DNA from: Burkholderiales bacterium
GTDB taxonomy: Bacteria; Pseudomonadota; Gammaproteobacteria; Burkholderiales; Burkholderiaceae_C
Direction: 5' to 3'
NCBI GenBank assembly: GCA_025350145.1
Contig: JANXYH010000104.1
Span: 1 to 64,000 of the forward strand
Length of the DNA stretch: 64,000 bases
Position numbers and translations under genes: made by a program. This document shows, one piece after another, positions 1,777 through 17,705 of the stretch. The notes under the pieces are model-generated. The model saw only the letters and a list, made by a program, of their open reading frames with translations, searched no databases and was not told where the DNA came from. How positions within the stretch are numbered: the first letter of the stretch is position 1; the number at the start of each line of letters is the position of its first letter.

Positions 1777-3003
1777 ATGGTTCAAGCAAGGGTGTTGGTG
1801 GCCCAGGGTGGTGGACCCACCGCCGTCATCAACCAGTCGTTGGTCGGCGTGGTCCAGGCGGCGCGGCGCTGCCTCGGGGTGGAGCGGATCTACGGCGCGC
1901 GGCATGGCGTTCGCGGTGTGGTCAACGAGGATTTCGTCGACCTGGCGCGGCAGACCCAGGTCCAGCTTGAGCGCGTCGCGGCCACCCCCGGCGCGGCCCT
2001 GGGCAGCACCCGCGACAAGCCCGACGCCGCCTATTGCCAGCGCATGTTGCGGGTGCTGCAGGCCCATGCCATCAGCCACTTCTTCTACATCGGCGGCAAC
2101 GACTCCTCGGACACCGCGCGGATCGTCAGCGAACAGGCCAAAGCCGCCGGCTACCCGCTGGTGGCGGTGCACATCCCCAAGACCATAGACAACGACCTGG
2201 TCGGCAACGACCACACCCCAGGCTATGCCTCGGCGGCGCGCTTCGTGGTGCAGGCCTTTGCCGGCGCCAACCTCGACAACGCCGCCCTGCCCGGCGTCTA
2301 CCTGGGGGTGGTGATGGGCCGCCACGCCGGCTTCCTGACCGCCGCCGCCGCCCTCGCCCGGACCCGCCCCGACGACGGCCCGCACCTGGTCTACCTGCCC
2401 GAGCGGGTGTTCGAGATCGAGCGCTTCCTGGCCGATGTGCAGGCGGTGCAGCAACGCCTGGGCCGCTGCGTGGTCGCCGTCAGCGAGGGCATCCACGACG
2501 CCGCCGGCCAGCCGATCCTGGCGCAACTCGCGGCCGAGCTGGAGCGCGACGCCCATGGCAATGTCCAGCTCTCGGGCACCGGCGCCCTGGCCGACCTGCT
2601 GTGCGAGCAGATCAAGTCGGGCCTGGGCCTGAAGCGGGTGCGCGGCGACACCTTCGGCTATTTGCAGCGCAGCTTCCTGGGCTGCGTCAGCGAGGTTGAC
2701 CAGCAGGAGGCGCGCGAGGTCGGCGAGAAGGCGGTGCAGTTCGCGCTCGATGGCGACGAGCACGGCCAGCACGAGGGCTCGGTCGCGATCCAGCGGGTCG
2801 GCGACTACGCGGTCGACTACCGTTTGCTGCCGCTGGCGGCGGTGGCGGGCAAGACCCGGGTGATGGAAGACGGGCTGATCGCTGCCAGTGGCAACGATGT
2901 CAGCGAGGGCTTTGTGCGCTACCTGCGGCCCTTGCTCGGCAGCAGCCTGCCCCAGGCCCATGGGCTGCGCGACCACCCGGTCGCCAGGCTGCTGGGCGCC
3001 TGA
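1777..3003 (+). CDS. pfp: Pyrophosphate-dependent 6-phosphofructokinase
   Basis: Phosphofructokinase family (PF00365). It phosphorylates fructose 6-phosphate to the 1,6-bisphosphate, probably with PPi, reversibly, in the cytoplasm. The N-terminal GGGPTAVIN loop is at about residue 11, GGNDSSD at 106-112 and PKTIDND at 134-140. The lysine of PKTIDND is typical of PPi-using enzymes, where ATP enzymes have PGTIDND. The phosphoryl-donor loop reads GGND where ATP enzymes have GGDG and most PPi enzymes GGDD, so donor choice should be tested. MGRHAGFLT and the C-terminal VRGDTFGYLQRS region are conserved. Length (408) fits the bacterial PPi class. The start is fixed by GGAG 7 bases upstream. Confidence 0.9.
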   Translation: MVQARVLVAQGGGPTAVINQSLVGVVQAARRCLGVERIYGARHGVRGVVNEDFVDLARQTQVQLERVAATPGAALGSTRDKPDAAYCQRMLRVLQAHAISHFFYIGGNDSSDTARIVSEQAKAAGYPLVAVHIPKTIDNDLVGNDHTPGYASAARFVVQAFAGANLDNAALPGVYLGVVMGRHAGFLTAAAALARTRPDDGPHLVYLPERVFEIERFLADVQAVQQRLGRCVVAVSEGIHDAAGQPILAQLAAELERDAHGNVQLSGTGALADLLCEQIKSGLGLKRVRGDTFGYLQRSFLGCVSEVDQQEAREVGEKAVQFALDGDEHGQHEGSVAIQRVGDYAVDYRLLPLAAVAGKTRVMEDGLIAASGNDVSEGFVRYLRPLLGSSLPQAHGLRDHPVARLLGA

Positions 3004-3039
3004 GGTCGCGCGTGGGCGAACCAACCTGGAGCAAACACC

Positions 3040-4158
3040 ATGACCGTCAGCACCGAACCCGGCACCATGATCTTCGAGCAAATCGCCACCGGCGGCTGCC
3101 AGAGCTATCTGCTGGGCTGCGCCGATACCCGCCAGGCGGCGCTGATCGACCCCGAGGTCAGCCAGGTCGACCGCTACCTGGCGCTGGCCGCGCAGGACGG
3201 GTTGACGATCCGCTTCCTGATCGACAGCCACACCCATGCCGACCATTTCTCGGGCACCCAGGTGCTGGCCAAGCGTTTGCACGCCACCCGGGTGATGCAC
3301 CGCGCCGCACCCGCGCCGGGCCTGGACATGCGGGTCGATGACGGCGAATCGATCCTGCTGGGCAAGCTGCGGCTGCGGGTGCTGCACACCCCCGGCCATA
3401 CCGCCGATTCGATGTGTTTGCAGGTCGCCGACCGGGTCTTCACCGGTGACACCCTCCTGATCGGCGGCACCGGCCGCACCGATCTGCCCAGCGGCGACCC
3501 GGCCCAGCTCCACGCCAGCCTGTTCGGCAAACTGCTCAAGCAGGACCCGGCGCTGCTTGTCTATCCGGCACATGACTACAAGGGCCGCAGCCACTCGACC
3601 CTGGCCGACGAGATCGCCACCAACCCGCGCCTGCAGGTGCGGGCGCTGGAGGACTTCGTGGCGATGATGCGCAACCTCAACCTGTCGGCGCCAACCCACC
3701 TCACCGAGGCCCTGCGCACCAACATGAGCGGCGGCAAGACGGTGGCGCAGATGCTGGCCGAGGCCGAGTCGCAGGTGCCCTTCATGGCCATGACCGAGCT
3801 GCGCGACCGGCTTGCCAGCCTCAGCCCAAGCGGTACCGCTGGCACCGCTGGCAGCGCCGGCAGCGCCGACAACTGCGGCCGGCTGATCGTGCTCGACGTG
3901 CGCGAGCGCGACGCCTATGACGCCGGCCACATCCCCGGTGCGGTGCTGCTGCCACGCGGCCAACTGGAGCTGCGCGTCAACACCGTCCTGCCCGATCCGA
4001 CTGCGCGCATCGTCACCTGCTGCGATTTCGGCCGCATCTCGACCCTGGCCGCCGCCACCCTGCACGAGATGGGTTTTGCCCGGGCGGTGGCGCTGGACGG
4101 CGGGATGAAGGCCTGGGCCGCAGCCGGGCTGCCGCTGGAGCTGGCGGCGGTGGGCTGA
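3040..4158 (+). CDS. Persulfide dioxygenase (ETHE1-like) fused to a rhodanese domain
   Basis: Residues 1-250 are a metallo-beta-lactamase fold of the ETHE1 type. Iron ligands are visible in HTHADHFSG, in TPGHTADS and in TGDTLLIGGTGRTDL, with a late PAHDYKG histidine. ETHE1 proteins oxidise glutathione persulfide to sulfite. After a low-complexity linker (GTAGTAGSAGSAD) comes a C-terminal rhodanese domain (about 280-372) with DVRERDAYDAGHIPGA and an active-site loop CDFGRIS, so the catalytic cysteine is present. Such fusions couple persulfide oxidation to sulfur transfer between thiosulfate and glutathione. The gene starts 36 bases after pfp with GGAG upstream. Together with the sox genes at 13 kb it suggests active inorganic sulfur metabolism. 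Confidence 0.88.
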   Translation: MTVSTEPGTMIFEQIATGGCQSYLLGCADTRQAALIDPEVSQVDRYLALAAQDGLTIRFLIDSHTHADHFSGTQVLAKRLHATRVMHRAAPAPGLDMRVDDGESILLGKLRLRVLHTPGHTADSMCLQVADRVFTGDTLLIGGTGRTDLPSGDPAQLHASLFGKLLKQDPALLVYPAHDYKGRSHSTLADEIATNPRLQVRALEDFVAMMRNLNLSAPTHLTEALRTNMSGGKTVAQMLAEAESQVPFMAMTELRDRLASLSPSGTAGTAGSAGSADNCGRLIVLDVRERDAYDAGHIPGAVLLPRGQLELRVNTVLPDPTARIVTCCDFGRISTLAAATLHEMGFARAVALDGGMKAWAAAGLPLELAAVG

Positions 4159-4164
4159 AGCGGC

Positions 4165-4181
4165 CCTCCTTCGCAAGGAGG
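4165..4181 (+). terminator. Short hairpin after the dioxygenase-rhodanese gene
   Basis: CCTCCTT-CGC-AAGGAGG, a perfect 7-bp stem with a 3-base loop, begins 6 bases after the stop codon. There is no T-run, so it may be a weak or Rho-assisted terminator, or an RNA 3' end stabiliser. Confidence 0.35.
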
Positions 4182-4245
4182 ATGGCAGCGCCGGCCCTGG
4201 GTGCTAGGCTGAAGCCGGCACTCTGCCTCAAGGATTGGTGTTGCG

Positions 4246-4887
4246 ATGCGCGCGCTCTGGATAGAAGACCACCAACTGATCGGCGACTCGCTGGCGATCT
4301 TGCTGCAAGTGGTGATGCCCGAGGTTTCGCTCGACAAGGCACGTGACCTGGACAGCGCCCTCGGCCTGATCGCCACCTTCCGCTATGAACTGGTGTTGCT
4401 CGACTGGTGGCTGGGCCCGCATGACGGCCAGGCGACGATGCGCCGCCTGCGCGAGGCCGGCTGCAACACCCCGGTGATCGTGGTCTCGGGCGACGAGCGC
4501 GAGGCGGTGATGCGCCAGGCCATGGCGCTGGGGGCGGTGGGCTATGTGCCCAAGTCGGCCGACCCGGACACCCTGGTCGCGGCGATAGGCCAGGCCCTGC
4601 ACGGCATGGTCACGCCGCGGCTGGCCAGGCCCGAACCGGGCGCGACAGCCCCTGGCGGCCTGCCAGCGATCGACGTTGCGGCGCTCTTCCCCGAGCTGAC
4701 CTCGCGCCAATGCGAGGTCTTCCGGGCACTGATGCGTGGCCTGTCGGACAAGCAGATCGGCCGTGACCTGGCGATCTCCGACACCACCGTCAAGACCCAT
4801 GTGCGGGCGATCCTGCAGGCCGTGGGCGTCCACCGCCGCGGCGAGGCGGCCTTCGCGGCACGCCAGCGGGGCAGCGGTGGGTATTGA
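4246..4887 (+). CDS. LuxR/NarL-family two-component response regulator
   Basis: The receiver domain (about 1-120) has the acidic pair in WIEDHQ, the phosphoacceptor aspartate in LLDWWLGPHDG, a Ser in VVSGD and the lysine in YVPKSA. A linker leads to a C-terminal LuxR-type helix-turn-helix (ELTSRQCEVFRALMRGLSDKQIGRDLAISDTTVKTHV). It is a cytoplasmic DNA-binding regulator, probably activated by phosphorylation. The 3' end overlaps the next gene, a hybrid histidine kinase, by 11 bases, which argues that the two form one signalling pair. The target promoters and signal are not visible. Confidence 0.9.
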   Translation: MRALWIEDHQLIGDSLAILLQVVMPEVSLDKARDLDSALGLIATFRYELVLLDWWLGPHDGQATMRRLREAGCNTPVIVVSGDEREAVMRQAMALGAVGYVPKSADPDTLVAAIGQALHGMVTPRLARPEPGATAPGGLPAIDVAALFPELTSRQCEVFRALMRGLSDKQIGRDLAISDTTVKTHVRAILQAVGVHRRGEAAFAARQRGSGGY

Positions 4888-6715
4888 AGCGGACCCCGAG
4901 GCGGACCCCGAGGCGGCCACACCGGCGCGGCTCCAGGCGCTGGTCGAGGCACGCCAACTGCAATTGATCCTGAGCCAGTTGCGCCGGGTGGCGGTCACAC
5001 ATCTGCTGGTCGATGTCGTTGTTGCCTGGCTGGCCTGGCGCGCCGGCCTGGGTTGGCTGGCGGGGCTGTGGCTGTTGGTGATCGCCGCGATGGTGCTGGT
5101 CCGCGACCGTTATGTCCGCCGGCAGCAGGCCCAGACACTGCCCGATGTGCCAGCGGCGCTGGCGCATCTGCGCGCATGGCTGGTCTTGATCGGCTTGGCT
5201 CAGGTGGCGGTGATGGCCCTGGTGTTCTCGCGCCCGCCGGGCGACGCGCATTACCTGCTGACGATGGTGATGCTGGGCACGTCCGCCGGGGCGGTCATGG
5301 TGGTGGCCGGGCACACGCGCGGCTTCATGCCCTGGGCCGGGGTGTTCTTCGGGGGACTGGCGCTGTGTTGGCTGTCGCACCTGGATCTCGAAGGCCTGCT
5401 GGTGGCCTTGTTGATCCTGTCCCTGCTGTCCACCCTGGTCGCGGCGGTGCGCGACCAGGGCCGCACCCTGGCCAACCTGGTCAGCCTGTCGGAGGCGCTG
5501 CGCCTGGAGCGGGACAAGCAGTCGCGCTTGTCGGCCGAATTGGCCCAGGCACGTGACCGCGCCGAGCGCGCCAGCCAGGCCAAAACCCGCTTTTTTGCCT
5601 CGGCCAGCCACGATCTGCGCCAGCCGCTGACCGCGCTGTCGTTCAACGCCGCGACGCTGCGCCTGCTGGCGCAACGCCTGGCCGATGACGACCTGAGCCA
5701 GGTCAGCGACGGCATTCGGCGGGCCCTGGCGGAGAGCCAGGGCCTGCTCGACAGCGTGCTGGAGGTGTCCAAGCTTGACGCCGGAACGATCGAGGTTCAG
5801 CCCCAACCGGTGGAGCTGGTGGCACTGCTGGCCGAGCTGGCGCAGCCGCTGGTCGCCGCCGCAGCCGCGCGTGGCCTGACGCTGCGGGTGCAGGACGCGG
5901 CGGCCGCAGCGCTGTGGGCCAGCACCGACCCGGTGCTGCTGCGCCGCATCCTGCACAACCTGGTCGACAACGCGATCAAGTTCACCCGCAGCGGCGGGGT
6001 GAGCTTGGCGGTGCAGCCCGACGCCGGCCGGTGGCTGCGGATCAGCGTCAGCGATACCGGGCCGGGGATCGCGGCCGAATCGCAGGACAAGGTGTTCGAG
6101 GAGTTCTTCCAACTCGGCAACGCCGAGCGCAACCGCAGCCGCGGCCTGGGCCTGGGCCTGGCGATCGTGCGCCGGTTGGCGGCCCTGCTCGGCGCCGAGG
6201 TCGGCCTGGACAGCGTCCCTGGCCACGGTGCGACCTTCTGGCTGCGCCTGCCGCATGGCCAGAGCGACGCCGCCGGGCAGCCGGCCGAGCCCGCCGCTTC
6301 GGCCGGCGCCCACCCGGCGCTTGGCAGCGCGTCGCAGCAAACCCACAAGGTGCTGGTGATCGACGATGAACCGGCGATCCGCCAGGCTCTGGGCGGCTAT
6401 TTGCGCAGCCTGGGCTGGGAGGTGGTCAGCGCCGGCGATGCCGACGAGGCCATGGCTGCCTGGCGCGGCGGCTTTGCGCCGCAGGCCCTGCTGATCGACT
6501 TCAGGCTGCGCGAGGGCGCCAGCGGCCTGGACGCATTGGCCGCGCTGCGCGCCGCCGGCTGCACCGCACCGGCCTGGCTGATCACCGGCGACACCGAGCC
6601 CGGGCGCATCAGCCAGGCCCGCGCGGCGGGGCTGCCGGTGGTCTACAAGCCGGTGCAGGGCGAAGCGCTGGTGGCGCTGCTGCGGACGGTGCTGGAGCCG
6701 CCTGAACCGACTTGA
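4877..6715 (+). CDS. Membrane hybrid sensor histidine kinase with C-terminal receiver
   Basis: The ORF track begins this frame at 4736, inside the regulator gene. I place the start at GTG 4877 because the 4736-4876 stretch is Arg/Ser/Pro-rich shadow and the GTG gives the common overlapping stop/start. The N-terminal third holds several hydrophobic helices (for example MVLVRDRYV preceded by LAGLWLLVIAA). A HisKA segment follows with the phospho-histidine in ASASHDLRQPLTALSF, then a HATPase with HNLVDNAIKFT, SDTGPGIA and RGLGLGLAIV. A receiver (VLVIDDEPAIRQ, LLIDFRLREG) ends the protein. It is probably the cognate kinase of the upstream regulator. The stimulus is unknown and no extracytoplasmic domain of size is evident. 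Confidence 0.88.
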   Translation: MGIEADPEADPEAATPARLQALVEARQLQLILSQLRRVAVTHLLVDVVVAWLAWRAGLGWLAGLWLLVIAAMVLVRDRYVRRQQAQTLPDVPAALAHLRAWLVLIGLAQVAVMALVFSRPPGDAHYLLTMVMLGTSAGAVMVVAGHTRGFMPWAGVFFGGLALCWLSHLDLEGLLVALLILSLLSTLVAAVRDQGRTLANLVSLSEALRLERDKQSRLSAELAQARDRAERASQAKTRFFASASHDLRQPLTALSFNAATLRLLAQRLADDDLSQVSDGIRRALAESQGLLDSVLEVSKLDAGTIEVQPQPVELVALLAELAQPLVAAAAARGLTLRVQDAAAAALWASTDPVLLRRILHNLVDNAIKFTRSGGVSLAVQPDAGRWLRISVSDTGPGIAAESQDKVFEEFFQLGNAERNRSRGLGLGLAIVRRLAALLGAEVGLDSVPGHGATFWLRLPHGQSDAAGQPAEPAASAGAHPALGSASQQTHKVLVIDDEPAIRQALGGYLRSLGWEVVSAGDADEAMAAWRGGFAPQALLIDFRLREGASGLDALAALRAAGCTAPAWLITGDTEPGRISQARAAGLPVVYKPVQGEALVALLRTVLEPPEPT

Positions 6716-6736: not shown

Positions 6737-8500
6737 TCAAAGCCGGAAGGTCCGGGGGCGGCGGCCGTTCTGGCCGTCGAACTCGACCTGCAGGTCCCAG
6801 GCACCGTCGCCCTGCCGCTGCGGGAACAGTGCAGCAAAGCCGTCGCCACAGTCGGGGAACCAACTGCTGAGCTGGCAGTTGAATTGCCGCCCGCTGTCCG
6901 GGTCGCTGAAGTCGAAGCTTTCTGAGCCGGCAAAGTCGTCGGCCAGGGCGTTGGCAAACGGGTAGGGCGCGTACAGCGCCGAGCTGTGGACCGAGTGCAG
7001 GGTGACCACCTTTTGCGGCTCCGACGGGCAGCTCAGACGGACGGTAGCGACGCAGGGGATGTGCTCGTCGCCCGAGAGGAACACGACCGGTGCGGCGGCG
7101 TCGTACACCCAGGCCAGCAGGGCGTGCAGCGAGGCCGGGTAGCCGAACCATTCGTCCAACTGCAGAGCCAGGCTGGGTTGGTCGGCCAGCCCCAGCCGGC
7201 GTGGCAGGACCATCGCGCCCGAGACCACGAAGGCCGGCGGGCTGTCGGCCCGGCGCCCGCCAATCCAGGCCTGCAAGGCGCCGCGCTGGGCCGGGCCGAT
7301 GATCTGGGCGTCGCGCCAGTTGCCGATGTCGCGCAGCCCGCGGTCGCTGCGGGTGTCGGCCAGGAAGAAGTCAAAGCCGCCCAGCCTGCGCTGCTCGAAC
7401 AGCGCGGCACCGGGCAGCGGCAGTGGCGGTGGTGACGATGGTGCAGGCCACATCCGGCGCTGGCGGCTCAGGTACCGGGCCTTGCCTTCGGCCAGCAGCG
7501 CCGCATTGGCGGCTTGCCCGGGTGCCGTCGCCGGCATCGGCTCCCAGTTGTCGACGGCCTCGTGGTCGTCCATCAGCGGCAACACCGGCCGGTTGGCGGT
7601 GTTCAGGCGGTTCATGCCGGGGTGCTCGGCCATGCGCGCATAGGCAAAGCTGAAGCGGTCGAGCAACTTGGCAGCGTCGAACAGGCCGGCGCTGGCGTCG
7701 ACGTAGACCTGGTCGCCGGCCAGCAGGGTGAAGGCCAGTTCGGGTTGGCTGCGCAGGCGCTGGGCCAGTCGCCACAGCGATTGCCCGGCCGGGCCCAGAT
7801 CGCTGGCGTCCAGGTCCCAGGGCTGGTTGCGCCCGGCGCCGTCGAGCATGCCCGCCGGGTACTGGCAACTGGCCAGGCAGAAGCCGGCGGCCCAGTCGGG
7901 TGCGGCGGCTGCCGCTGCCGTCGCCCGGGCCAGACTGGGCAAGGCCGGCGTGGCGGCCACCGGGCTGGGCACGGTGCCATGGCCCAGCGCGGCCAGCGGC
8001 AAACGCTGCAGGGCGCGCCGGACCTGGGCAAAGGCCACGCCGGGATCGGTGCAGGGGTCGCCAACGGGCACGTCGGCCGACGCCAGCCGCGCGCGGCCGG
8101 GGTTGAATTGCTCGACCCGGCGCAGCCCGAAATCGCCGTCGCCTATGCCCTCAATTTGGTCGAAGAACAGCAGCAGCATGGCGAACGGCGCTGCGCTTTG
8201 GGGCCAGGGCAGGTCGATCTCCACGGTCGGCGGAAAGTCCTGGCCCGGTGCCGGCAATGGCTCGGCCCGGGCGACCAGGTGGGCGGCGTTGGGCTGCGGG
8301 ATGGGCTGACCCTGCGGATCCGCCAGGCACCAGCGCTGGCCGGCCAGCGCCACCGGCACCAGGATCGCGCAGGGCGGCGCGCCGTTGGCGTCCTCGAACG
8401 CCACCACGCAGCGCAGGCGGCCGGCACTGACCTGGGTCGGCACCGCAAAGGACGTCGGTGGCAGGGCTTTGCGGCAGGGCATGCGCTTGTCCTCGGTCAT
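6737..8500 (-). CDS. PhoD-like phosphodiesterase/phosphatase family protein
   Basis: Metal-binding signatures of the PhoD-like metallophosphoesterase fold are spread over the C-terminal two-thirds: FCLASCQYP, LLAGDQVYVD, LPLMDDHEAVDNW, FFLADTRSDR and FLSGDEHIPC. The first 200 residues lack recognisable motifs and no signal peptide is seen (MTEDKRMPC start), so it may act in the cytoplasm, unlike exported PhoD. Its ATG overlaps the TGA of the upstream GMC-hydrolase gene (ATGA, 8497-8500), so translation is coupled and the pair probably share a pathway. The substrate cannot be inferred. It converges with the histidine kinase, 21 bases apart. Confidence 0.8.
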   Translation of the reverse strand: MTEDKRMPCRKALPPTSFAVPTQVSAGRLRCVVAFEDANGAPPCAILVPVALAGQRWCLADPQGQPIPQPNAAHLVARAEPLPAPGQDFPPTVEIDLPWPQSAAPFAMLLLFFDQIEGIGDGDFGLRRVEQFNPGRARLASADVPVGDPCTDPGVAFAQVRRALQRLPLAALGHGTVPSPVAATPALPSLARATAAAAAAPDWAAGFCLASCQYPAGMLDGAGRNQPWDLDASDLGPAGQSLWRLAQRLRSQPELAFTLLAGDQVYVDASAGLFDAAKLLDRFSFAYARMAEHPGMNRLNTANRPVLPLMDDHEAVDNWEPMPATAPGQAANAALLAEGKARYLSRQRRMWPAPSSPPPLPLPGAALFEQRRLGGFDFFLADTRSDRGLRDIGNWRDAQIIGPAQRGALQAWIGGRRADSPPAFVVSGAMVLPRRLGLADQPSLALQLDEWFGYPASLHALLAWVYDAAAPVVFLSGDEHIPCVATVRLSCPSEPQKVVTLHSVHSSALYAPYPFANALADDFAGSESFDFSDPDSGRQFNCQLSSWFPDCGDGFAALFPQRQGDGAWDLQVEFDGQNGRRPRTFRL

Positions 8501-11500
8501 TGCAGGAACTCGGCGATCAAGGCATAGGTCTGGTCGGCGCCTCGGCCGATCAGGCTGTCCTGGTGGCCGACCTGGGCCAGCCGCAGCGAGCGGCCCTTCA
8601 GGCCCGAGGCCTGCAGTCGATCAAAAAGCAGCCCCCGGGTGGCGTAGTCGACCAGGCCGTTTCGGTCGGCGTGCAGGCACAGCAGTTCGCAGCCTTTGAG
8701 CCGATCCAGATGGGCGGCGATGAAGCCGCCCCGGCCCTGGCGGTCAGTGACCAGCCCGGTGCGGGCGAAGGCGATCACCTGGGCGGTGGTGGACAGGTTG
8801 GATGGCCCGAAGAAATCGTCGATGGCGTTGAGCACCGGCTCGTCCATGTTGACCAGGTCGAAGGTGATGCCGTAGAGCGCGTCCATGCGGTGCCGGGCGG
8901 CGGTCCAGGTCGTTTTCTTCCACGGTGGCCAGAACGGGTTCTCGCGCCAGAAGTCGCGGCGCGGGTAGGGCACGACGCAGAGCAGGCGGTCAAGCATGTC
9001 GTCGGCCGGGCTGGGCCGGCGCGGCGAGAACTCGAAGCGGCCGAGCTTGAAATACTGGCGCAGCCAACTGACGACAAAGGCCCGGGCGGTGTTCGACGGC
9101 GCCATCCGCAGCACCGGCCCGACCTGCGACAGCACCAGGCGGCGGATGCGGCCAGGCAGTTTTGCGCGCAGCTCAGGGTAGAGGTCGAACGGCGGCGTGT
9201 CCGCCGGCAGCGTCTGCCCGCCCCAGTCGCCCAGCAGCCCCAGGCTGAGCATGGCCGCGCCCATGCAGTGGGCGACCAGGTCGAGCTGCTGCGCACCGGT
9301 CTTGGTCAGCACATGGTCGACCGCCAGCGGTATGTCCTGGCAGCCCATCTGCTCGAACGACCAGGGCCGCTGTGCGCCCGGCATGCCGGCACTGCTGCGC
9401 AGGTCCAGCACCCAGACGTCGCGGCCGAGGGCGCAGAGCGTGCCTGCCAGGCCGCCGCCGGGCAGCAGCGGGTGGGCAAAGGTGGTGCCGCTGGCGCTGT
9501 AGCCATGGACCATCAGCACCGGCGGCGCGGCGCTGACCCGGCCGTCGGCATCGGCCTGGGCCGGGTAGCGCGACAGCCGCAGCAGCGCGCCCTCGGCCAT
9601 CTGCAGTTCAACCACGGTCGGCGTGACGCTGCCGCGCGGCGTGGGCAGCACGCCCGGCAGGCGCCGGTTTTCGGCGTCGATGTGCGGCGACGGCGCGGCG
9701 GCACTGGCACTGGCACTGGCACGGTTCGGCCGGTCGGGCTGGCGCAGGGTCCAGGCATGCAGCGGCAGCAGCACCCGGCCCAGGTACAGGCCCAGGGTCG
9801 CCAGGTCGGCCAGCGCGGTCGGCTGGTCCTGCTGCGACGCCACCCGCAGCAGCGGGATGCCGACCCTGGCGAAATGCGCCAGGTCGACACTCAGTGGCCC
9901 GGTCAGGCGCAGGCCCGCAGCGCCGGAACTGTGGATCACCTTGGCGATGCTGAGCTGGTTGATCGGGCTGGCCGCCAGGTTGTAGGTCAGGGTCTTGACG
10001 GCGCGGATCTCGGCCCCTTGCCAGGCCTGGACGCGGCCGCTGCCCGGGCCCTGCAACAAACTGCCGGCGGTGGGTTGGCCGAGCTTGAACTGGTACGCGA
10101 TCAGGCGTTTGTCACCCGCCCAGGAGGCCAGGCGCAATCCGGCCAATAGCGCCCTCAGCAGGCCTGGGCCTGTCGATCTGGCCTGGACGGCGTCCAGCAG
10201 CCGGCCGACGAAGTCGCGCAGGCCTCGGTTGAGGATGTAGGCCACGACCGCGCGCAGGATCCGGCAGCCGACCCAGGAAGGCGCGTGGTGCAGCAGGTCC
10301 ATCTGCCCGGACAGCGGCGCCTCCAGCAGCAGGCGCCGTTCCTGCGGCGGGGCCGACGCTGGCCCCGCCGGGCCGGTCGATTCGTCGTCGGGCGCGGCAA
10401 CGGCCGGGGCGTACAAGCGCAGCCGGCTCTGCAGCGGGTTGAACGCGACCCGGCGCGATCCGTTCGGCGTGGTGAGTTCGGCCGTGGTCACCGGTTGCGA
10501 CCAGAGCTGCAATTCGATCTCGCAGCGTTGGCCATCGAAGTCGGCCTGGCCGCGCATCTGTTCGGCAAACTGCAGCAGCGTCGGTGCCGCCGGGCTGGGG
10601 TCCGGCAGGGTGCGAAAGGCGGGCCTGGGCTGAGGCGGCCTGGCCTCGCCAGCACCACGCATCAAGCCCCAGCCACCCTGGGCCGGCGGCGTGTCGCGCA
10701 GGTGCTGCAGCGCACGCTGGGCCAGCATGGCGATGGTCAACGAGGGGTTGATGCCCAGCGAGGTCGGCACCACCGAGCCGTCCAGCACCAGCAGGTCGGG
10801 GTACACGCTGTCACGGCCGGCGCCGTCAAAGACCTGGCCGAGGTGGTTGACCACGCCTTCTTCGACCGTGTCGGCCATCACGCAGCCGCCCAGCGGGTGG
10901 ACGGTGACCATGGCGCCACGGACCTGGCCGAGGATGCTCTCGAGCGCCTGCGGCAGCGGCTGCCAGGCCGGGTTGGCCAGGACGGTGGCCTGGGGGTGGC
11001 CGCGCTGCGCAAGCTGCTTCAGGCCTTGCTGGTAGGCGTCCAGTCGCGGCTCGCCCGGCAGGGTCGGCCATTCGACACCCAGGGTGCCGATTTCGGCGTC
11101 CGTGCCGGGCAGGCGCAGCCGGCCGTCGGCGCTGTCGCGGCCGATCAGCGCCACGGTCATGCTGGCCTCGATCTTGTGCGGGTCGATCGCCGCGTCATCG
11201 GCCTGGCCCGCGCCGCGCCAGGACCCGTCGAAGCGGGTCATGGCGTCCAGTCGCGTGCCCAGGCTGACGGTCTCCTCGAACAACCGGCGCAGCGGCCCAG
11301 GAACGCCCAGATCCTGGATCACCATCGCCGGCAGCGATGTGGCCAGGCCGGGGCCGCGCAGATCGACCATGCGGGTGATGGTCGGGCCGACCTGGCGCTG
11401 GTCGTAGGGCTGGGCCTCGTCGGCCACGGCCTTGGCAGGTGCCGCCATGCCGTAGACGGCGTAGATGTTGTCGCCGTTGGCCGAGAAGCGCTTGCCGATC

Positions 11501-12468
11501 CGCGCCGAGGTCTTGAGCCCGCCCTTGCTGGCGCGCAGCAGCAACTCGGTCGAGCCCATGGTGCCGGCGGCGACGATCAGCCTGGCGCTGCGGATCAGGT
11601 ACGCATCGCCCTGGCGCTGGGCCAGGTGCGGATGGGTGTGCAGCACCTCCAGGCACCAGCCGCCTTCAGGCAGCCTCTTGAAGCTGCGCACGGTGGCGCC
11701 AGTGGCGATGTGCAGGCAGCCGGCGGCGTGGCGCGCGCTGGCCCGGGCCAGCAGGGTCACGTCCAGCGACAGCTTGGCGCGAAAGTTGCACCCGGTGGCG
11801 CAGTCGCCGCAGTGGTTGCATGCCTCGATGCCGCGCGCGGCATCGGCGCGGTCGGCCACGATGATCTGCACGACGACCGGCGCCGTGCCGCCGCTCAGGC
11901 CCTGCATCGCCGCCGTGCGGGCGGGGATGTTGGGCGCGGCAACCGCCTCCAGCGCCCGCTGGGCCTGGGCAAGCTGCGCCGGCAGCGTGGCGTCATGGCG
12001 AATCGCCTCGGGCCAGGCCGGCTCCTGGAACACCGCCGCCAGGGGCGCAGCGGTGACGCCAGCGTTGATCAGCGAGCCCCCGCCCAGGCCGTTGCCCAGC
12101 AGCATGCCGACATCGGGGCCGATGCGCAGGTCGAACAGCCCGTCGGCCTGGCCACGCACCTTCGGGTCGCCGGCGGTGCTGTAGCGGACATGGCCGGCCA
12201 GGTCGGCCATGCGCGTCGGGAAGGCGCCGGGCAGGTACTCGCTGCCGCGCTCGAACAGGGCGATGCGCAGTGGCCGGCCATCGGCGGCGGTGCAGCCCGC
12301 GAGTTCATGCAGGGCCATCGCTCCGCCATAGCCGCTGCCGACGATGGCGATGTCGAAGTGGTGGCCGGCCGCGTCGGCAGGCAAGCTGCCCTGGGCCAGC
12401 GCATCGGCAAGCTCGGTCAGATCGCGTCCCAGCCACTGTGTGGCCCGTGCTTGTCGTTGGGTCGACAT
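8497..12468 (-). CDS. GMC oxidoreductase fused to an alpha/beta hydrolase
   Basis: This is a 1323-residue multidomain protein. Residues about 1-570 are a glucose-methanol-choline flavoprotein like long-chain alcohol/cholesterol oxidases: FAD loop IVGSGYGG, LLGNGLGGGSLINAG, and the C-terminal HPLGGC and SLGINPSLTIA. It carries a cysteine cluster CNHCGDCATGC near residue 216 that could hold an iron-sulfur centre. A middle region (about 600-900) is unassigned. Residues about 950-1323 form an alpha/beta hydrolase (VLMVHGYSASG) with the nucleophile elbow VAHCMGAA, so cysteine sits where serine is usual. A late GHQD may give the catalytic histidine. Such a protein could oxidise and hydrolyse lipid or sterol-like esters. 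It has no signal peptide and is coupled to the PhoD-like gene. Confidence 0.85.
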   Translation of the reverse strand: MSTQRQARATQWLGRDLTELADALAQGSLPADAAGHHFDIAIVGSGYGGAMALHELAGCTAADGRPLRIALFERGSEYLPGAFPTRMADLAGHVRYSTAGDPKVRGQADGLFDLRIGPDVGMLLGNGLGGGSLINAGVTAAPLAAVFQEPAWPEAIRHDATLPAQLAQAQRALEAVAAPNIPARTAAMQGLSGGTAPVVVQIIVADRADAARGIEACNHCGDCATGCNFRAKLSLDVTLLARASARHAAGCLHIATGATVRSFKRLPEGGWCLEVLHTHPHLAQRQGDAYLIRSARLIVAAGTMGSTELLLRASKGGLKTSARIGKRFSANGDNIYAVYGMAAPAKAVADEAQPYDQRQVGPTITRMVDLRGPGLATSLPAMVIQDLGVPGPLRRLFEETVSLGTRLDAMTRFDGSWRGAGQADDAAIDPHKIEASMTVALIGRDSADGRLRLPGTDAEIGTLGVEWPTLPGEPRLDAYQQGLKQLAQRGHPQATVLANPAWQPLPQALESILGQVRGAMVTVHPLGGCVMADTVEEGVVNHLGQVFDGAGRDSVYPDLLVLDGSVVPTSLGINPSLTIAMLAQRALQHLRDTPPAQGGWGLMRGAGEARPPQPRPAFRTLPDPSPAAPTLLQFAEQMRGQADFDGQRCEIELQLWSQPVTTAELTTPNGSRRVAFNPLQSRLRLYAPAVAAPDDESTGPAGPASAPPQERRLLLEAPLSGQMDLLHHAPSWVGCRILRAVVAYILNRGLRDFVGRLLDAVQARSTGPGLLRALLAGLRLASWAGDKRLIAYQFKLGQPTAGSLLQGPGSGRVQAWQGAEIRAVKTLTYNLAASPINQLSIAKVIHSSGAAGLRLTGPLSVDLAHFARVGIPLLRVASQQDQPTALADLATLGLYLGRVLLPLHAWTLRQPDRPNRASASASAAAPSPHIDAENRRLPGVLPTPRGSVTPTVVELQMAEGALLRLSRYPAQADADGRVSAAPPVLMVHGYSASGTTFAHPLLPGGGLAGTLCALGRDVWVLDLRSSAGMPGAQRPWSFEQMGCQDIPLAVDHVLTKTGAQQLDLVAHCMGAAMLSLGLLGDWGGQTLPADTPPFDLYPELRAKLPGRIRRLVLSQVGPVLRMAPSNTARAFVVSWLRQYFKLGRFEFSPRRPSPADDMLDRLLCVVPYPRRDFWRENPFWPPWKKTTWTAARHRMDALYGITFDLVNMDEPVLNAIDDFFGPSNLSTTAQVIAFARTGLVTDRQGRGGFIAAHLDRLKGCELLCLHADRNGLVDYATRGLLFDRLQASGLKGRSLRLAQVGHQDSLIGRGADQTYALIAEFLQ

Positions 12469-12835: not shown

Positions 12836-13603
12836 TCAGGGTCGAACCGCTGGCGTCTCCACCGCCATGCCGGCGTCGCGCTGCGCCAGCCAGGCTTCTA
12901 GCCTCAGCCAGGGCTCAGCGTCGGCCGCCCAGGGCTCGGCCCGCACCCCGACCACGCAGGCGCGCAGCCGGCGTTGCAGGCTGCCCAGGGCCTGCCATTC
13001 GAGCCGGTAGCTGGGGTAGCCGGTGGCGCGGCCCTGGGGGATGGTCGCGCCGGCCAACTTGGCGCCGGCATGCCGGTCATGGCAATGGCTGCAGGCCAGG
13101 TTGAGCTGGCCCAGGCGCTGCTGCCACAGCGCCTGGCCCTGCGCCCGCAGCGGCGCCAGGCGCGGATCGGCAGGCGGCGCCATCGGCAGGCCACGCGACT
13201 GCAGGCCGACAAACGCCAGCAGTGCGAGTTGCTCGGCATGGTCGGCGGGCAGCGGCAGGGCCTGCTGGTGGCGGACGCGGCAGGCGTTGACGCGCCCGGC
13301 CAGGTTCAGTGGCGCAGCGCTGGCCTCGTCCCAGGCCGGATAGCGGGCGGCCACGCCGGCCATGCTGCGGGCGGCGTCGCCATGGCAATCGGCGCAGCGC
13401 TTGCCGGTCTTGCCGGCGGCGGCCTGCCACAGCGCCGCACCATCTTGGACGAACAGAAAGGCCGGGTTCTGGCTGTCATGGCGTTGCAGCGCCTGCAAGG
13501 CCGGGCTCATGTCGTCCAGGCCCGAGCGGCGGGTGTCGCTGCCCTCAGCGGCGCTGGCGCTGCTGCCCAGGGCAAGCCACAGCAGCCAGACTGCCAACCT
13601 CAT
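12836..13603 (-). CDS. soxA: Sulfur oxidation c-type cytochrome SoxA
   Basis: SoxA with SoxX forms the periplasmic heterodimer that attaches thiosulfate to the SoxY cysteine oxidatively. Seen here are a signal peptide (MRLAVWLLWLALGSSASAAEG), a first heme site CADCH near residue 68, a second CSHCH near residue 170, and the hallmark C-terminal CVVGVRAEPW, whose cysteine is the modified heme ligand and active site. The track starts 18 codons earlier. I choose the ATG at 13603 because it overlaps the soxZ stop as ATGA and leads directly into the signal peptide. The usual downstream partner soxB is missing from this locus. Confidence 0.92.
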   Translation of the reverse strand: MRLAVWLLWLALGSSASAAEGSDTRRSGLDDMSPALQALQRHDSQNPAFLFVQDGAALWQAAAGKTGKRCADCHGDAARSMAGVAARYPAWDEASAAPLNLAGRVNACRVRHQQALPLPADHAEQLALLAFVGLQSRGLPMAPPADPRLAPLRAQGQALWQQRLGQLNLACSHCHDRHAGAKLAGATIPQGRATGYPSYRLEWQALGSLQRRLRACVVGVRAEPWAADAEPWLRLEAWLAQRDAGMAVETPAVRP

Positions 13604-13938
13604 GAGGTAACGAACGGCCGGGTTTCGCGGTGGCTGAAGCCGTTGTCGCCGGTCCATTCGAAGCGCAGCGTGCCGGGCTTGTCGCTACGCAGCCAGAACG
13701 CCACATAGGGGTTGGCCGAGATCGCCGGGTACAGGTCGGTGGCCAGCACCAGCCGCTCGTCCAGCCAGCATTCGAAGCGGGTGACGATGCTGCGCGGCAC
13801 GACATTGCCGTAGCCGTCGGGGCGCAGGCCGTTTTCCATCGCGTGGCCCAGCGTGACTCGGATCTCGACCGGCGCGCCGGGGCCGGCCGGCGTGCCGATG
13901 TGGATCAGGGTGCGGACTTTGGCGGGGCTGTCGGCCAT
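13600..13938 (-). CDS. soxZ: Thiosulfate oxidation carrier complex protein SoxZ
   Basis: This is the 112-residue subunit that partners SoxY as the sulfur-substrate carrier in the periplasm. It has the SoxZ pattern: RTLIHIGTP near the start, VEIRVTLGHAMENGLR, then an immunoglobulin-like beta sheet ending FSHRETRPFVTS. As is normal for SoxZ it has no signal peptide and is thought to be co-exported with SoxY. The ORF track merges it into a longer frame from 14337. The ATG at 13938, 8 bases after soxY, is the natural start. It is coupled to soxA by an ATGA overlap. Confidence 0.92.
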   Translation of the reverse strand: MADSPAKVRTLIHIGTPAGPGAPVEIRVTLGHAMENGLRPDGYGNVVPRSIVTRFECWLDERLVLATDLYPAISANPYVAFWLRSDKPGTLRFEWTGDNGFSHRETRPFVTS

Positions 13939-13946
13939 GCTGCTTG

Positions 13947-14417
13947 CTAGCCTTCGACGCAGGCGGCCAGGGTGACGATCACGTTGACGTAGCTGGCCCA
14001 CTGGCTGCCGTCGGACAGCCGCGCCAGCGCCACCAGTTGCTGCGATGTCGCCAGCCGAATCCGGGTCGATGCCTCGGCCCTGGCCGCAGCCGGGCCGAAG
14101 TAAAAGCGCACCACCTCGCGCTGCGGGTTGCGCTCGTTGTAGACGGCGATCTCCTGGACATGGTCGGTGGCGGTCATGGGGCTGTCGCAGCGCACCGTGA
14201 TCGGCACTGCGTTGCCGTTCTCGACCAGCGGCGCGATCTCGAGCTCGACCCGGCCCTCGTGCAGCGGCAAGTCGCCGGCCCATTGGCGGATGATGCCGGC
14301 GAAGGTGACGGTGGTGACGGCGCTGGCCGGCAGGCATTGCAGCGCCAGCGCGCCGCCGGCTGCCGCCATCAGCCTGCGCCTGGGCAAACCAAGGTGTACG
14401 GGAATGTCGGCGTTCAT
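13947..14417 (-). CDS. soxY: Thiosulfate oxidation carrier protein SoxY with an atypical C-terminus
   Basis: SoxY carries the sulfur substrate on a cysteine at the end of a flexible C-terminal arm, normally GGCGG-stop. The N-terminus has a twin-arginine signal (PRRRLMAAAGGALALQ), and the body matches SoxY (GDLPLHEGRVELEIAPLVENG; YNERNPQREVVRFYFGP). The last residues read VTLAACVEG-stop, so the cysteine is kept but the flanking glycines are gone and three residues, not two, follow it. A frameshift is unlikely because the frame ends in a clean TAG just before soxZ. It lies 7 bases after soxX. It may be a functional variant or a specialised carrier. Confidence 0.88.
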   Translation of the reverse strand: MNADIPVHLGLPRRRLMAAAGGALALQCLPASAVTTVTFAGIIRQWAGDLPLHEGRVELEIAPLVENGNAVPITVRCDSPMTATDHVQEIAVYNERNPQREVVRFYFGPAAARAEASTRIRLATSQQLVALARLSDGSQWASYVNVIVTLAACVEG

Positions 14418-14424
14418 CTGGCCC

Positions 14425-14805
14425 TCACTTCAGGCTGACCAGGTAGGCCACCACGTCGTCGATCTGGTGGGGCGTCAGCAGCGGCTTGCCGCGCAGCGCC
14501 GGGGCGACCTGGTTGAAGCCCTGGCTGCGGCCATAGCTGGGCATGACGGTGTCGGGGTTGAAGCGCTCCGGGTTGAGCAGGCGCTGGCGCAGCGCCTGGG
14601 CGCTGTGGCGGCTGCCGGCACCCGCCAGCGGCGGCGCCAGCGTGCCCTGCAGGCCGTCGGGCTGGCCGGGGATCGGGTGGCAGAGCAGGCACAGGCCTTG
14701 GCTGCGGCTGCTGACGATGCGCTCGCCGGCCCGGGCGTCGCCGGCTGCCGCCCAGCCCGGCAGGCAAAGGCTGGCCAGCAGCGCCGCGAGCCAGACCCGG
14801 TTCAC
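14425..14805 (-). CDS. soxX: Sulfur oxidation c-type cytochrome SoxX
   Basis: A 126-residue monoheme cytochrome that pairs with SoxA. It has a signal peptide (VNRVWLAALLASLCLPGWAAAG), heme site CLLCH near residue 38, and the SoxX pattern NPDTVMPSYG supplying a methionine ligand, then GKPLLTPHQIDDVVAYLVSL. The track shows only a long frame from 15672. The true start is the GTG at 14805, which overlaps the TGA of the molybdenum hydroxylase gene (GTGA). That overlap places soxX in the same transcript and couples its translation to the oxidoreductase. Confidence 0.9.
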   Translation of the reverse strand: MNRVWLAALLASLCLPGWAAAGDARAGERIVSSRSQGLCLLCHPIPGQPDGLQGTLAPPLAGAGSRHSAQALRQRLLNPERFNPDTVMPSYGRSQGFNQVAPALRGKPLLTPHQIDDVVAYLVSLK

Positions 14806-17063
14806 GCCCGTTTCAGGCTGTGCTGTGACAGCGGCAGCTCGCGGATGCGTTTGCCGGTGGCGGCAAAGATCGCGTTCAGCACCGCCGGCGCGGCCACCGC
14901 GATGGTCGGCTCGCCGACCCCGCCCCAGAACCCGCCCGAGGGCATGACCGCGGCCTCGACCTTGGGCATCTGCGCCATCAGCAAGGCCGGGTAGGTGTGG
15001 AAGTTGGTTTGCTCGAAGCGCCCGTCCTTCAGGGTGCAGGCCTCGAACAGCGCGCCCGACAGGCCGTAGGCGAAGCTGCCCTCGACCTGGGCGGCGATCT
15101 GCTGCGGGTTGACGGCGTGGCCCGAGTCGGTGGCGGCGACGATGCGGTGCACCCGCAAGTCGCCCGCCGGGCTGACCGAGACCTCGGCGCAGGCCGCGAC
15201 GAAGCTGCCAAAGCCGTGGATCGCGGCCAGGCCGCGGTGCACCGCCAGGCCATCGACCGGCTTGGCCGGCGTGCCCCAGCCGGCGTCGGCGGCGACCCGG
15301 TTGAGCACCGCCAGGTGTTTGGGCGCGCCACCCAGCATGGCGCGGCGAAAGGCCAGCGGATCTTGCCCGGCGGCGTGGGCCAGTTCGTCGATGAAGCACT
15401 CGACGTAGATCGCGTTGTGGTTGAGGTTGACGCCGCGCCAGAAGCCCGGCCGCACCGGCGGGTTGCGCATCGCATGGTCGATCAGCAGGTGCGGCACGCT
15501 GTAGCCAAAGGCGCCCTCGGGCCCGCCCGCGTTCAGGCCCTGGAAAGTGACCGGATCCTTGCCGTTTTGCAGCGCCGCCGGCAGCAGCCCGGCCAGGATC
15601 GACTGGCCCGAGATGCGCATGTGCAGTGCCTGCAGCTTGCCCTGGGCGTCCAGCCCGGCGCGCAGTTTGCATTGCGTGATCGGGTGGTAGAAGCCGTGCT
15701 GCATGTCCTCTTCACGGCTCCAGATCAGCTTGACCGGGATGCCGGGCAGCTCGCGGGCGATGGCCACCGCCTGGGTCACGTAGTCGGCGCTGCCGCGCCG
15801 GCCGAAACCGCCGCCGAGGTGGATCTTGTAAACCTCGCACTGCGCCGCCGGCAGGCCCGAGGCGGCGGTGGCGGCGGCAAACGCCGCCTCGCCGTTCTGC
15901 GTCGGGCACCAGACCTCGCAGCGCGCCGGCTTGTCGCCCGCCGCCGGGGTGAAGCGCGCGGTGGCGTTCATCACCTCCATGGTGGCGTGGTTCTGGTAGG
16001 GGTAGCTGTAGACCGCCTCGACCAGCTTGGCCGCACCGGCCAGGCCGGCCTTGGCGTCACCGGCGGAATTGCCGACGTAGGCCTCGGGCGCGTCCAGCCC
16101 GGACTTGAGCATGACCGCGATGTCGGCGCTGGAGAGCTTGGCGTTGGGCCCCTCGTTCCATTGCACCGGCAGCGCATCGATCGCCTTCTTCGCCCGGTAC
16201 CAGGTGTCGGCGACCACCGCCACCGCCGTGTCGCTGACCCGCAGCACCTTTTTGACGCCGGGCATGGCCATCACCGCGCCAGCCTCGAACGAGACCAGCG
16301 TGCCGCCGACCACCGGGCAATCGCGGATCGCGGCGTTGAGCAGGCCGGGCAGTTTCAGGTCCATGCCGTAGACCTGGCTGCCGTCGGTCTTGGCCACCGT
16401 GTCCAGCCGCTTGACCGGCTTGCCGGCGATCTTCCAGTCCTTGGGGTCTTTGAGCTTGATGTCGGTCGGCGGCGTGCGCTTGGCGGCGGCGGCGGCCATC
16501 TGGCCGTAGCTGGCGCGCTTGCCCGAGGCATGGCTGATGACGCCGGCCTCGACCTTGCATTCGGCCGGGCTGACGCCCCAGCTCTCGGCGGCGGCCTGCA
16601 CCAGCATGGTCTTGGCAGCGGCGCCGCCCTTGCGCACGTAGTCGTTGGACTCGCGGATGCCGCGGCTGCCGCCGGTCGAGAAATTGCCCCAGACCCGGTT
16701 GCGTGCGAGGTTCTGTCCCGGCGTCGGGTATTCGGTGGTGACGCGCGACCAGTCGCAGTCCAGCTCCTCGGCCACCAACTGCGCCAGGCCGGTCAGCGTG
16801 CCCTGGCCCATCTCGCTGCGCGCGATGCGGATCACCACCGTGTCGTCGGGGTGGATCATGACCCAGGCATTGACCTCGGGCTGGCTGCCCTGGGCCAGCG
16901 CCGGGGAGACAGCGGCGGGGATATGGAATCCCAGCACCAGGCCGCCGGCCGAGGCCGAGGCGCTGGCCAGAAAGTGCCGCCGCGAGGGCGAACCTGGGAC
17001 GGTGGCGGCGGTGGCGGTGGCGGTGGCGGCGGTGGTGGCGGTGGCGGTGGTGGCGGTGCGCAT
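14802..17063 (-). CDS. Molybdopterin-binding large subunit, isoquinoline 1-oxidoreductase type
   Basis: Large subunit of a xanthine-oxidase-family molybdenum hydroxylase that would oxidise an aldehyde or N-heterocycle with water. It has a Thr/Ala repeat leader, a twin-arginine signal (SRRHFLASASASAGG) for folded export, the Mo-cofactor region GGFGRRGSADYVTQ, and the C-terminal GGVGEPT with the catalytic glutamate. The length of 753 fits IorB proteins, which lack a separate FAD subunit. The start at 17063 has AAGGAG five bases upstream; earlier sequence in the ORF track is frame shadow over the small subunit. IorB-type enzymes usually pass electrons to a cytochrome c. Here the next gene is soxX. 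The substrate is unknown. Confidence 0.88.
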   Translation of the reverse strand: MRTATTATATTAATATATAATVPGSPSRRHFLASASASAGGLVLGFHIPAAVSPALAQGSQPEVNAWVMIHPDDTVVIRIARSEMGQGTLTGLAQLVAEELDCDWSRVTTEYPTPGQNLARNRVWGNFSTGGSRGIRESNDYVRKGGAAAKTMLVQAAAESWGVSPAECKVEAGVISHASGKRASYGQMAAAAAKRTPPTDIKLKDPKDWKIAGKPVKRLDTVAKTDGSQVYGMDLKLPGLLNAAIRDCPVVGGTLVSFEAGAVMAMPGVKKVLRVSDTAVAVVADTWYRAKKAIDALPVQWNEGPNAKLSSADIAVMLKSGLDAPEAYVGNSAGDAKAGLAGAAKLVEAVYSYPYQNHATMEVMNATARFTPAAGDKPARCEVWCPTQNGEAAFAAATAASGLPAAQCEVYKIHLGGGFGRRGSADYVTQAVAIARELPGIPVKLIWSREEDMQHGFYHPITQCKLRAGLDAQGKLQALHMRISGQSILAGLLPAALQNGKDPVTFQGLNAGGPEGAFGYSVPHLLIDHAMRNPPVRPGFWRGVNLNHNAIYVECFIDELAHAAGQDPLAFRRAMLGGAPKHLAVLNRVAADAGWGTPAKPVDGLAVHRGLAAIHGFGSFVAACAEVSVSPAGDLRVHRIVAATDSGHAVNPQQIAAQVEGSFAYGLSGALFEACTLKDGRFEQTNFHTYPALLMAQMPKVEAAVMPSGGFWGGVGEPTIAVAAPAVLNAIFAATGKRIRELPLSQHSLKRA
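17001..17058. repeat. GGTGGC-type microsatellite inside the signal peptide of the molybdenum hydroxylase
   Basis: About 58 bases of GGTGGC/GGC repeats on the plus strand encode the Thr/Ala run (TATTATATTAATAT) just after the start codon. Units are 3 and 6 bases, so length changes keep the frame. Confidence 0.75.
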
Positions 17064-17086
17064 GGCAGCTCCTTGGCGAACGGCGC

Positions 17087-17584
17087 TCAGGCCTGGCCGG
17101 CGGGTGGCATGCCGTGCTCGTTGGCGGCATTGCGCTGGCCGGTGGCGGCCAGGTGGATCGCCGCGCGAACCCGGTTGTAGGTGCCGCAGCGGCAGATGTT
17201 GGTGATGCTGTCGTTGATGTCGGCGTCGCTGGGCCGGGGCTTGTTCTTCAGCAGCGCGGCGGCGGCCATCAACATGCCCGACTGACAGAAACCACACTGC
17301 GGCACGTCGAGCTCGGTCCAGGCCTTTTGCAGCGGGTGGCTGGCGTCGGGCGCCAGGCCCTCTATCGTCACCACCTTGTCGCTGCTGTCCAGGCTGGACA
17401 CCGGCCGCACGCAGGAGCGGGTGGCCACACCGTTGATGTGCACGGTGCAGGCGCCGCATTGGGCGATGCCGCAGCCGTACTTGGTGCCGGTCAGGCCGAG
17501 TTGCTCGCGCAACACCCACAGCAGCGGGGTTTCGGGCTCGGCGTCATGGGTGCGGACGCTGCCGTTGACGTTCAGGGTGGCCAT
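17087..17584 (-). CDS. (2Fe-2S)-binding small subunit, isoquinoline 1-oxidoreductase type
   Basis: Partner of the next gene. A plant-type ferredoxin cluster ([21 protein letters not shown]) comes first, then the second cluster CGFCQSGM and [13 protein letters not shown] of the helical domain, as in all small subunits of the xanthine oxidase family. It relays electrons from the Mo site. The protein has no signal of its own and is expected to be exported with the Tat-targeted large subunit. I choose the ATG at 17584 ([14 protein letters not shown]) with GGAGAG upstream, not the earlier start in the track. The gap to the large subunit is 23 bases. It is probably first in an operon of six or seven genes. 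Confidence 0.9.
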
Positions 17585-17705
17585 GGGAATGCTCTCTCCA
17601 GCGGGTGAATGGTGGCGGCGCGCAGGCGCACAACAGCGGCCCATCATGCCGCTGGCGCGGCCGCAGCGGCATCGGGGTTGACGAGCAGCGCGGCGCGGAC
17701 AGCGC

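Follow-up and report, generated by a model that had tools for sequence, protein, structure and literature searches.

A GMC oxidoreductase–cysteine hydrolase fusion gene with a PhoD-like partner in a Burkholderiales genome and its putative role in lipid processing

We analyzed a stretch of 64,000 nucleotides from a Burkholderiales bacterium (contig JANXYH010000104.1 of assembly GCA_025350145.1), hereafter the window. A single open reading frame with an ATG start (8497–12468, minus strand) encoded a protein of 1323 amino acids consisting of a GMC flavoprotein domain, a middle domain, and an alpha/beta hydrolase domain with a cysteine in the nucleophile elbow. A fusion of a GMC oxidoreductase with a hydrolase had been predicted here from the sequence alone; it was present as described, and both the Pfam GMC models and a profile of the hydrolase family agreed with it. 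The middle domain, an asparagine at the acid position of the hydrolase, and a kinase–regulator pair, all described below, had no place in that prediction. No signal peptide was evident by eye at the N-terminus of the protein. The stop codon of the fusion gene overlapped the start of the next gene by 4 bp (ATGA). This gene encoded a PhoD-like phosphodiesterase/phosphatase of 587 amino acids (6737–8500, minus strand), which scored 49.4 bits with the Pfam PhoD model (cut-off 27). A LuxR-type response regulator (4246–4887, plus strand; Pfam Response_reg and GerE) and a hybrid histidine kinase of the HisKA–HATPase–receiver type (4736–6715, plus strand; assigned by Pfam, with a mechanically placed start) were encoded by genes convergent with the PhoD gene (4246–6715).

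On the other side, the soxA, soxY, and soxZ genes and a cytochrome c gene (12836–15672, minus strand) were located upstream of the fusion gene after a gap of about 370 bases, with no sign of a shared unit. A molybdenum hydroxylase pair, with MoCoBD and [2Fe-2S] subunits, was encoded at 14802–17647 (minus strand), and a short tandem repeat of the GGCGGT type was found at 17000–17058, close to where the large subunit begins.

Homologues of the fusion protein were sought in 399 sampled genomes belonging to the same order, in a plasmid collection, and in samples of the class and the phylum. Full-length homologues included those of Variovorax (L007, 49%) and Ensifer. The alignment comprised 33 full fusions from alpha-, beta-, and gammaproteobacteria, Leptospira, and Bacteroidota. 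The elbow cysteine and each of the four cysteines of a motif in the GMC domain were conserved in all 33, so these features of the fusion are not due to chance. Public records gave such proteins no names other than “alpha/beta fold hydrolase” and “GMC oxidoreductase”. A partial literature search revealed no characterized GMC–hydrolase fusion, no cholesterol-oxidase-like GMC protein with an Fe-S cluster, and no kinase-linked one. Every module belongs to a known superfamily; the fusion is thus uncharacterized in the literature searched and is not a new category.

The association with PhoD, which the original prediction had described as coupling, extended to gene fusion, which links the two proteins functionally. 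Of the 33 relatives, 11 (L047, L049, L050, L054, L057, L058, L110, L113, L114, Ensifer L038, and L046) carried the PhoD-like unit as an in-frame continuation of the hydrolase, giving open frames of 1855–2249 amino acids, with about 1909 for the Ensifer fusion; in L113, a frame break was located inside the PhoD part. PhoD was encoded by an adjacent gene at six loci (the window, L007, L059, L117, L107, and L055), and other metallophosphoesterases adjoined the fusion genes of L041, L045, and L051. The PhoD active-site motifs were retained in 12–13 of 13 sequences. In a maximum-likelihood tree, rooted at the midpoint only, the proteins of the window, Variovorax L007, and L117—all with a separate PhoD gene—were nested in a clade of PhoD fusions; this nine-row clade was supported at 100/100. 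This position suggests that the gene pair of the window arose by the splitting of an ancestral fusion.

Homologues of the window kinase adjoined 11 other long-form loci (L007, L047, L048, L049, L050, L054, L057, L058, L059, L110, and L114), including L048, in which the PhoD end lies off the contig; they were also found beside L111, L112, and L056. Homologues of the LuxR-type regulator were located beside most of the kinase-linked fusions, and the pair was a neighbor of the majority of PhoD-linked relatives. In four genomes with 80–120 kinase candidates each (G210, G342, G055, and G118), the adjacent kinase was the best match of the genome to the window kinase; the loci were sampled, and further paralogues exist in this kinase family. 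No adjacent kinase was seen at L117, at L113 (where the gene is at the contig end), or in Ensifer. In Ensifer L038, the place of the kinase upstream of the triple fusion was occupied by a divergent gene for a 1300-amino-acid adenylate/guanylate cyclase protein (2612–6622). Short forms from several phyla had neither PhoD nor kinase genes visible, so these partners are not obligatory parts of the system. One short-form fusion adjoined a gene for a RoxA-like cytochrome c protein (L052, 3567–5723, minus strand), a possible electron acceptor or lipid oxygenase.

The middle domain (residues 594–954; 9607–10689, minus strand) matched no Pfam family. A model of this domain from a compact relative (pLDDT 81) had a barrel-like order of beta strands and a C-terminal helix; on this basis, we describe the domain as beta-barrel-like and leave it unclassified. 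The model had no PDB match below 1e-3, and the matches obtained were weak ones to catalase and lipocalin-like proteins (E > 0.06). At two loci (L122, 3922–9268, and L123, 8841–14111), the cysteine hydrolase and the GMC protein were encoded unfused by neighboring genes together with a third protein, a patatin-like phospholipase that has the middle domain as its C-terminal portion. The three parts thus occur together whether fused or unfused, and in the latter case with a phospholipase, which ties the set to lipids; no other observation argues as strongly that the substrate is a lipid.

The hydrolase domain occupied residues 955–1323 (8500–9606, minus strand). Abhydrolase_1 scored 18.9 bits with the window protein alone, below the Pfam cut-off of 25.8, and the domain was assigned by profile and Foldseek searches. 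A profile of 22 hydrolase domains matched human gastric lipase (E 1.5e-20), dog gastric lipase (9e-20), and lysosomal acid lipase/cholesteryl ester hydrolase (1.9e-15). The same acid lipases were the first Foldseek matches of an AlphaFold model of residues 594–1323 (pLDDT 78), with an E-value of 1.2e-12 against 1k8q; the rows used for structure prediction excluded plasmid-record sequences. These profile and model matches identify the hydrolase as a relative of acid lipases in which the catalytic serine is replaced by cysteine and the aspartate by asparagine. The elbow reads AHC1068MG (gcc cac TGC atg ggc on the minus strand), and the TGC codon of Cys1068 was located at 9265–9267. The cysteine elbow had thus been read correctly, and cysteine, never serine, was found at this position in all 33 fusions. 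Judged by the alignment, the double Ser-to-Cys and Asp-to-Asn switch is fixed in the fusion clade and is no local mutation. Stand-alone relatives of the hydrolase also kept the cysteine, as HCQG (for example, L073 and L094) or HCVG, with L070 as the sole exception; more remote relatives had either serine (GHSLGG, AHSWGG) or a PHA-synthase-like sequence with cysteine.

Cysteine instead of serine favors thioester chemistry or acyl transfer. The domain might even be mainly an acyltransferase, PHA-synthase-like or forming wax or steryl esters, in a protein that builds a modified lipid instead of degrading one. Among alpha/beta hydrolases, PHA synthases typically have a cysteine as the nucleophile, the family profile matched PHA synthase (4.9e-6), and phaC/phaE and CoA-transferase genes neighbor the Rhizobium locus L043. 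We nevertheless regard this reading as unlikely: acid lipases scored far better with the same profile, and partners such as PhoD and patatin point to the breakdown of lipids. PHA synthases and dienelactone hydrolases, named for comparison in the original prediction, are more distant from this domain than acid lipases are. Among PhaC family models, only TIGR01836 gave matches (best 4e-5, in three of six members), with none listed for the window protein; no dienelactone hydrolase match was among those listed in the Pfam scans.

The GMC domain (residues ~36–592; 10693–12363, minus strand) exceeded the Pfam cut-offs for both GMC_oxred_N (33.1 bits, cut-off 23) and GMC_oxred_C (39.2 bits, cut-off 24.6). 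Cholesterol oxidases were the best solved relatives of its profile in the PDB (E 2.4e-47), and the domain is cholesterol-oxidase-like rather than a member of the NCBIfam cholesterol oxidase equivalog NF058674, with which it scored 113.3 bits against a cut-off of 850. The catalytic histidine (H524 of HPLGGC, 10897–10899, minus strand) and asparagine (N574 of NP..TI, 10747–10749, minus strand) were present in all 33 homologues.

The sequence C217NHCGDCATGC227 (11788–11820, minus strand), already noted as a cluster motif in the original prediction, comprises C217-x2-C220-x2-C223-x3-C227 and is a candidate [4Fe-4S] site. Its family-wide form, CxxCGxCxxGC, has ferredoxin-type ligand spacing. The motif was also found in stand-alone GMC proteins of the same order; it therefore marks a broad subfamily and is independent of the fusion. 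Another GMC enzyme, a glucose dehydrogenase, has in one subunit a 3Fe-4S cluster bound by Cys212, 218, and 222, similarly positioned along the polypeptide (PMC6719666), which makes a role of the four cysteines in electron transfer reasonable. Alternatively, they might bind zinc or be structural, with the GMC domain an ordinary oxygen-using oxidase. The nearest solved relative, cholesterol oxidase, does lack a cluster, and the top PDB matches of the motif profile, ferredoxins and FeFe-hydrogenases, were not significant for a segment of this short length (E 0.03–0.6, best 0.027). However, the spacing is exactly CxxCGxCxxxC and one family member was matched by Fer4 models, which, together with the cluster of the glucose dehydrogenase, makes this alternative improbable and an Fe-S cluster the preferred assignment.

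The catalytic residues of the hydrolase other than the nucleophile were also located. His1302 (8563–8565) and Asp1304 (8557–8559) of the GHxD motif, both on the minus strand, were conserved in 33 of 33 fusions. Asn1270 (8659–8661, minus strand), at the position of the catalytic aspartate of acid lipases, was asparagine in 32 of 33. This residue might reduce or change the hydrolase activity. By analogy, it could also recall the Cys-His-Asn arrangement functional in papain-like enzymes, with Asp1304 as an alternative helper. The gene of the exceptional stand-alone relative L070 (L121, 8306–9475) encoded AHGVGA, with glycine in place of the nucleophile and the other motifs kept, and its product is possibly a pseudoenzyme. 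That the hydrolase domain of the fusion serves to bind lipids, with slow catalysis or none, as the asparagine and this relative might imply, is highly improbable given the invariant cysteine and histidine of the fusions, the cysteine of the other stand-alone relatives, the invariant aspartate that could assist, and the papain-like precedent.

We propose that the fusion and its partners act as a cytoplasmic multi-activity enzyme of lipid processing, a proposal to which we give even chances. The GMC domain would oxidize a bulky alcohol of lipid type, either sterol-like or with a long chain, by means of FAD and the His524/Asn574 pair. A [4Fe-4S]-type cluster at C217–C227 would receive the electrons of FAD and hand them on to a cellular acceptor, so that the GMC domain would be a dehydrogenase. 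Cys1068 and His1302 would form a thioester acyl-enzyme from a lipid ester or thioester, resolved by hydrolysis or acyl transfer, and the PhoD partner would hydrolyze a phosphodiester bond in this lipid. The barrel-like middle domain probably holds the lipid between the sites. Expression or activity may be coupled to the neighboring hybrid histidine kinase and LuxR-type regulator.

A more far-reaching version, which we put forward only tentatively, is that these proteins form an uncharacterized class of bacterial multienzymes acting on lipids, in which a single polypeptide of up to 2249 amino acids unites a phosphodiesterase with a Cys-His-Asn domain of the acid-lipase type that forms an acyl-enzyme and with a lipid-alcohol dehydrogenase wired by Fe-S, under its own sensor kinase, and that it channels the cleavage, deacylation, and oxidation of a complex lipid, with electrons delivered to respiration and not to oxygen. 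If true, this would mean a natural Ser-to-Cys and Asp-to-Asn switch in the acid-lipase family, to which human cholesteryl ester hydrolase belongs, and a flavin domain of the cholesterol-oxidase type whose wiring relies on a ferredoxin motif and not on oxygen. Substrate and regulation can both be tested directly by way of the PhoD fusions and the kinase linkage.

Class I cholesterol oxidases (PDB 1b4v, 1coy) share with the fusion the GMC fold, the FAD-binding GSGYGG motif, the His/Asn pair, and the C-terminal GMC signature; unlike the fusion, they have neither the four-cysteine motif nor fused middle and hydrolase domains. The alpha subunit of the FAD glucose dehydrogenase of Burkholderia cepacia is, as proposed for the fusion, a GMC dehydrogenase whose Fe-S cluster lies in a mid-chain loop (PMC6719666). 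Its 3Fe-4S ligands are accompanied by Cys213 in a disulfide, and this Cys212/213/218/222 pattern is absent from the fusion, which has CxxCGxCxxxC; moreover, the glucose dehydrogenase is periplasmic and has hitchhiker and cytochrome subunits (PMC6719666), whereas no such subunits are encoded next to the fusion.

Gastric and lysosomal acid lipases (PDB 1hlg, 1k8q, 6v7n) have the same alpha/beta hydrolase core and the HxD motif at the catalytic histidine near the C-terminal end, but use serine as the nucleophile and aspartate as the acid in place of the cysteine and asparagine of the fusion. The PHA synthase PhaC (PDB 9knj, 5hz2) also has a cysteine in the nucleophile elbow, in a lipase-like box; it differs in its acidic aspartate, in not being fused to a GMC domain, and in a much weaker sequence match. 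With PhoD (PF09423), the partner protein shares the SC, GDQxY, DDHE, DTRSxR, and SGDxH motifs; unlike PhoD, it has no evident signal peptide and, in relatives of the window, is fused to the GMC–hydrolase protein.
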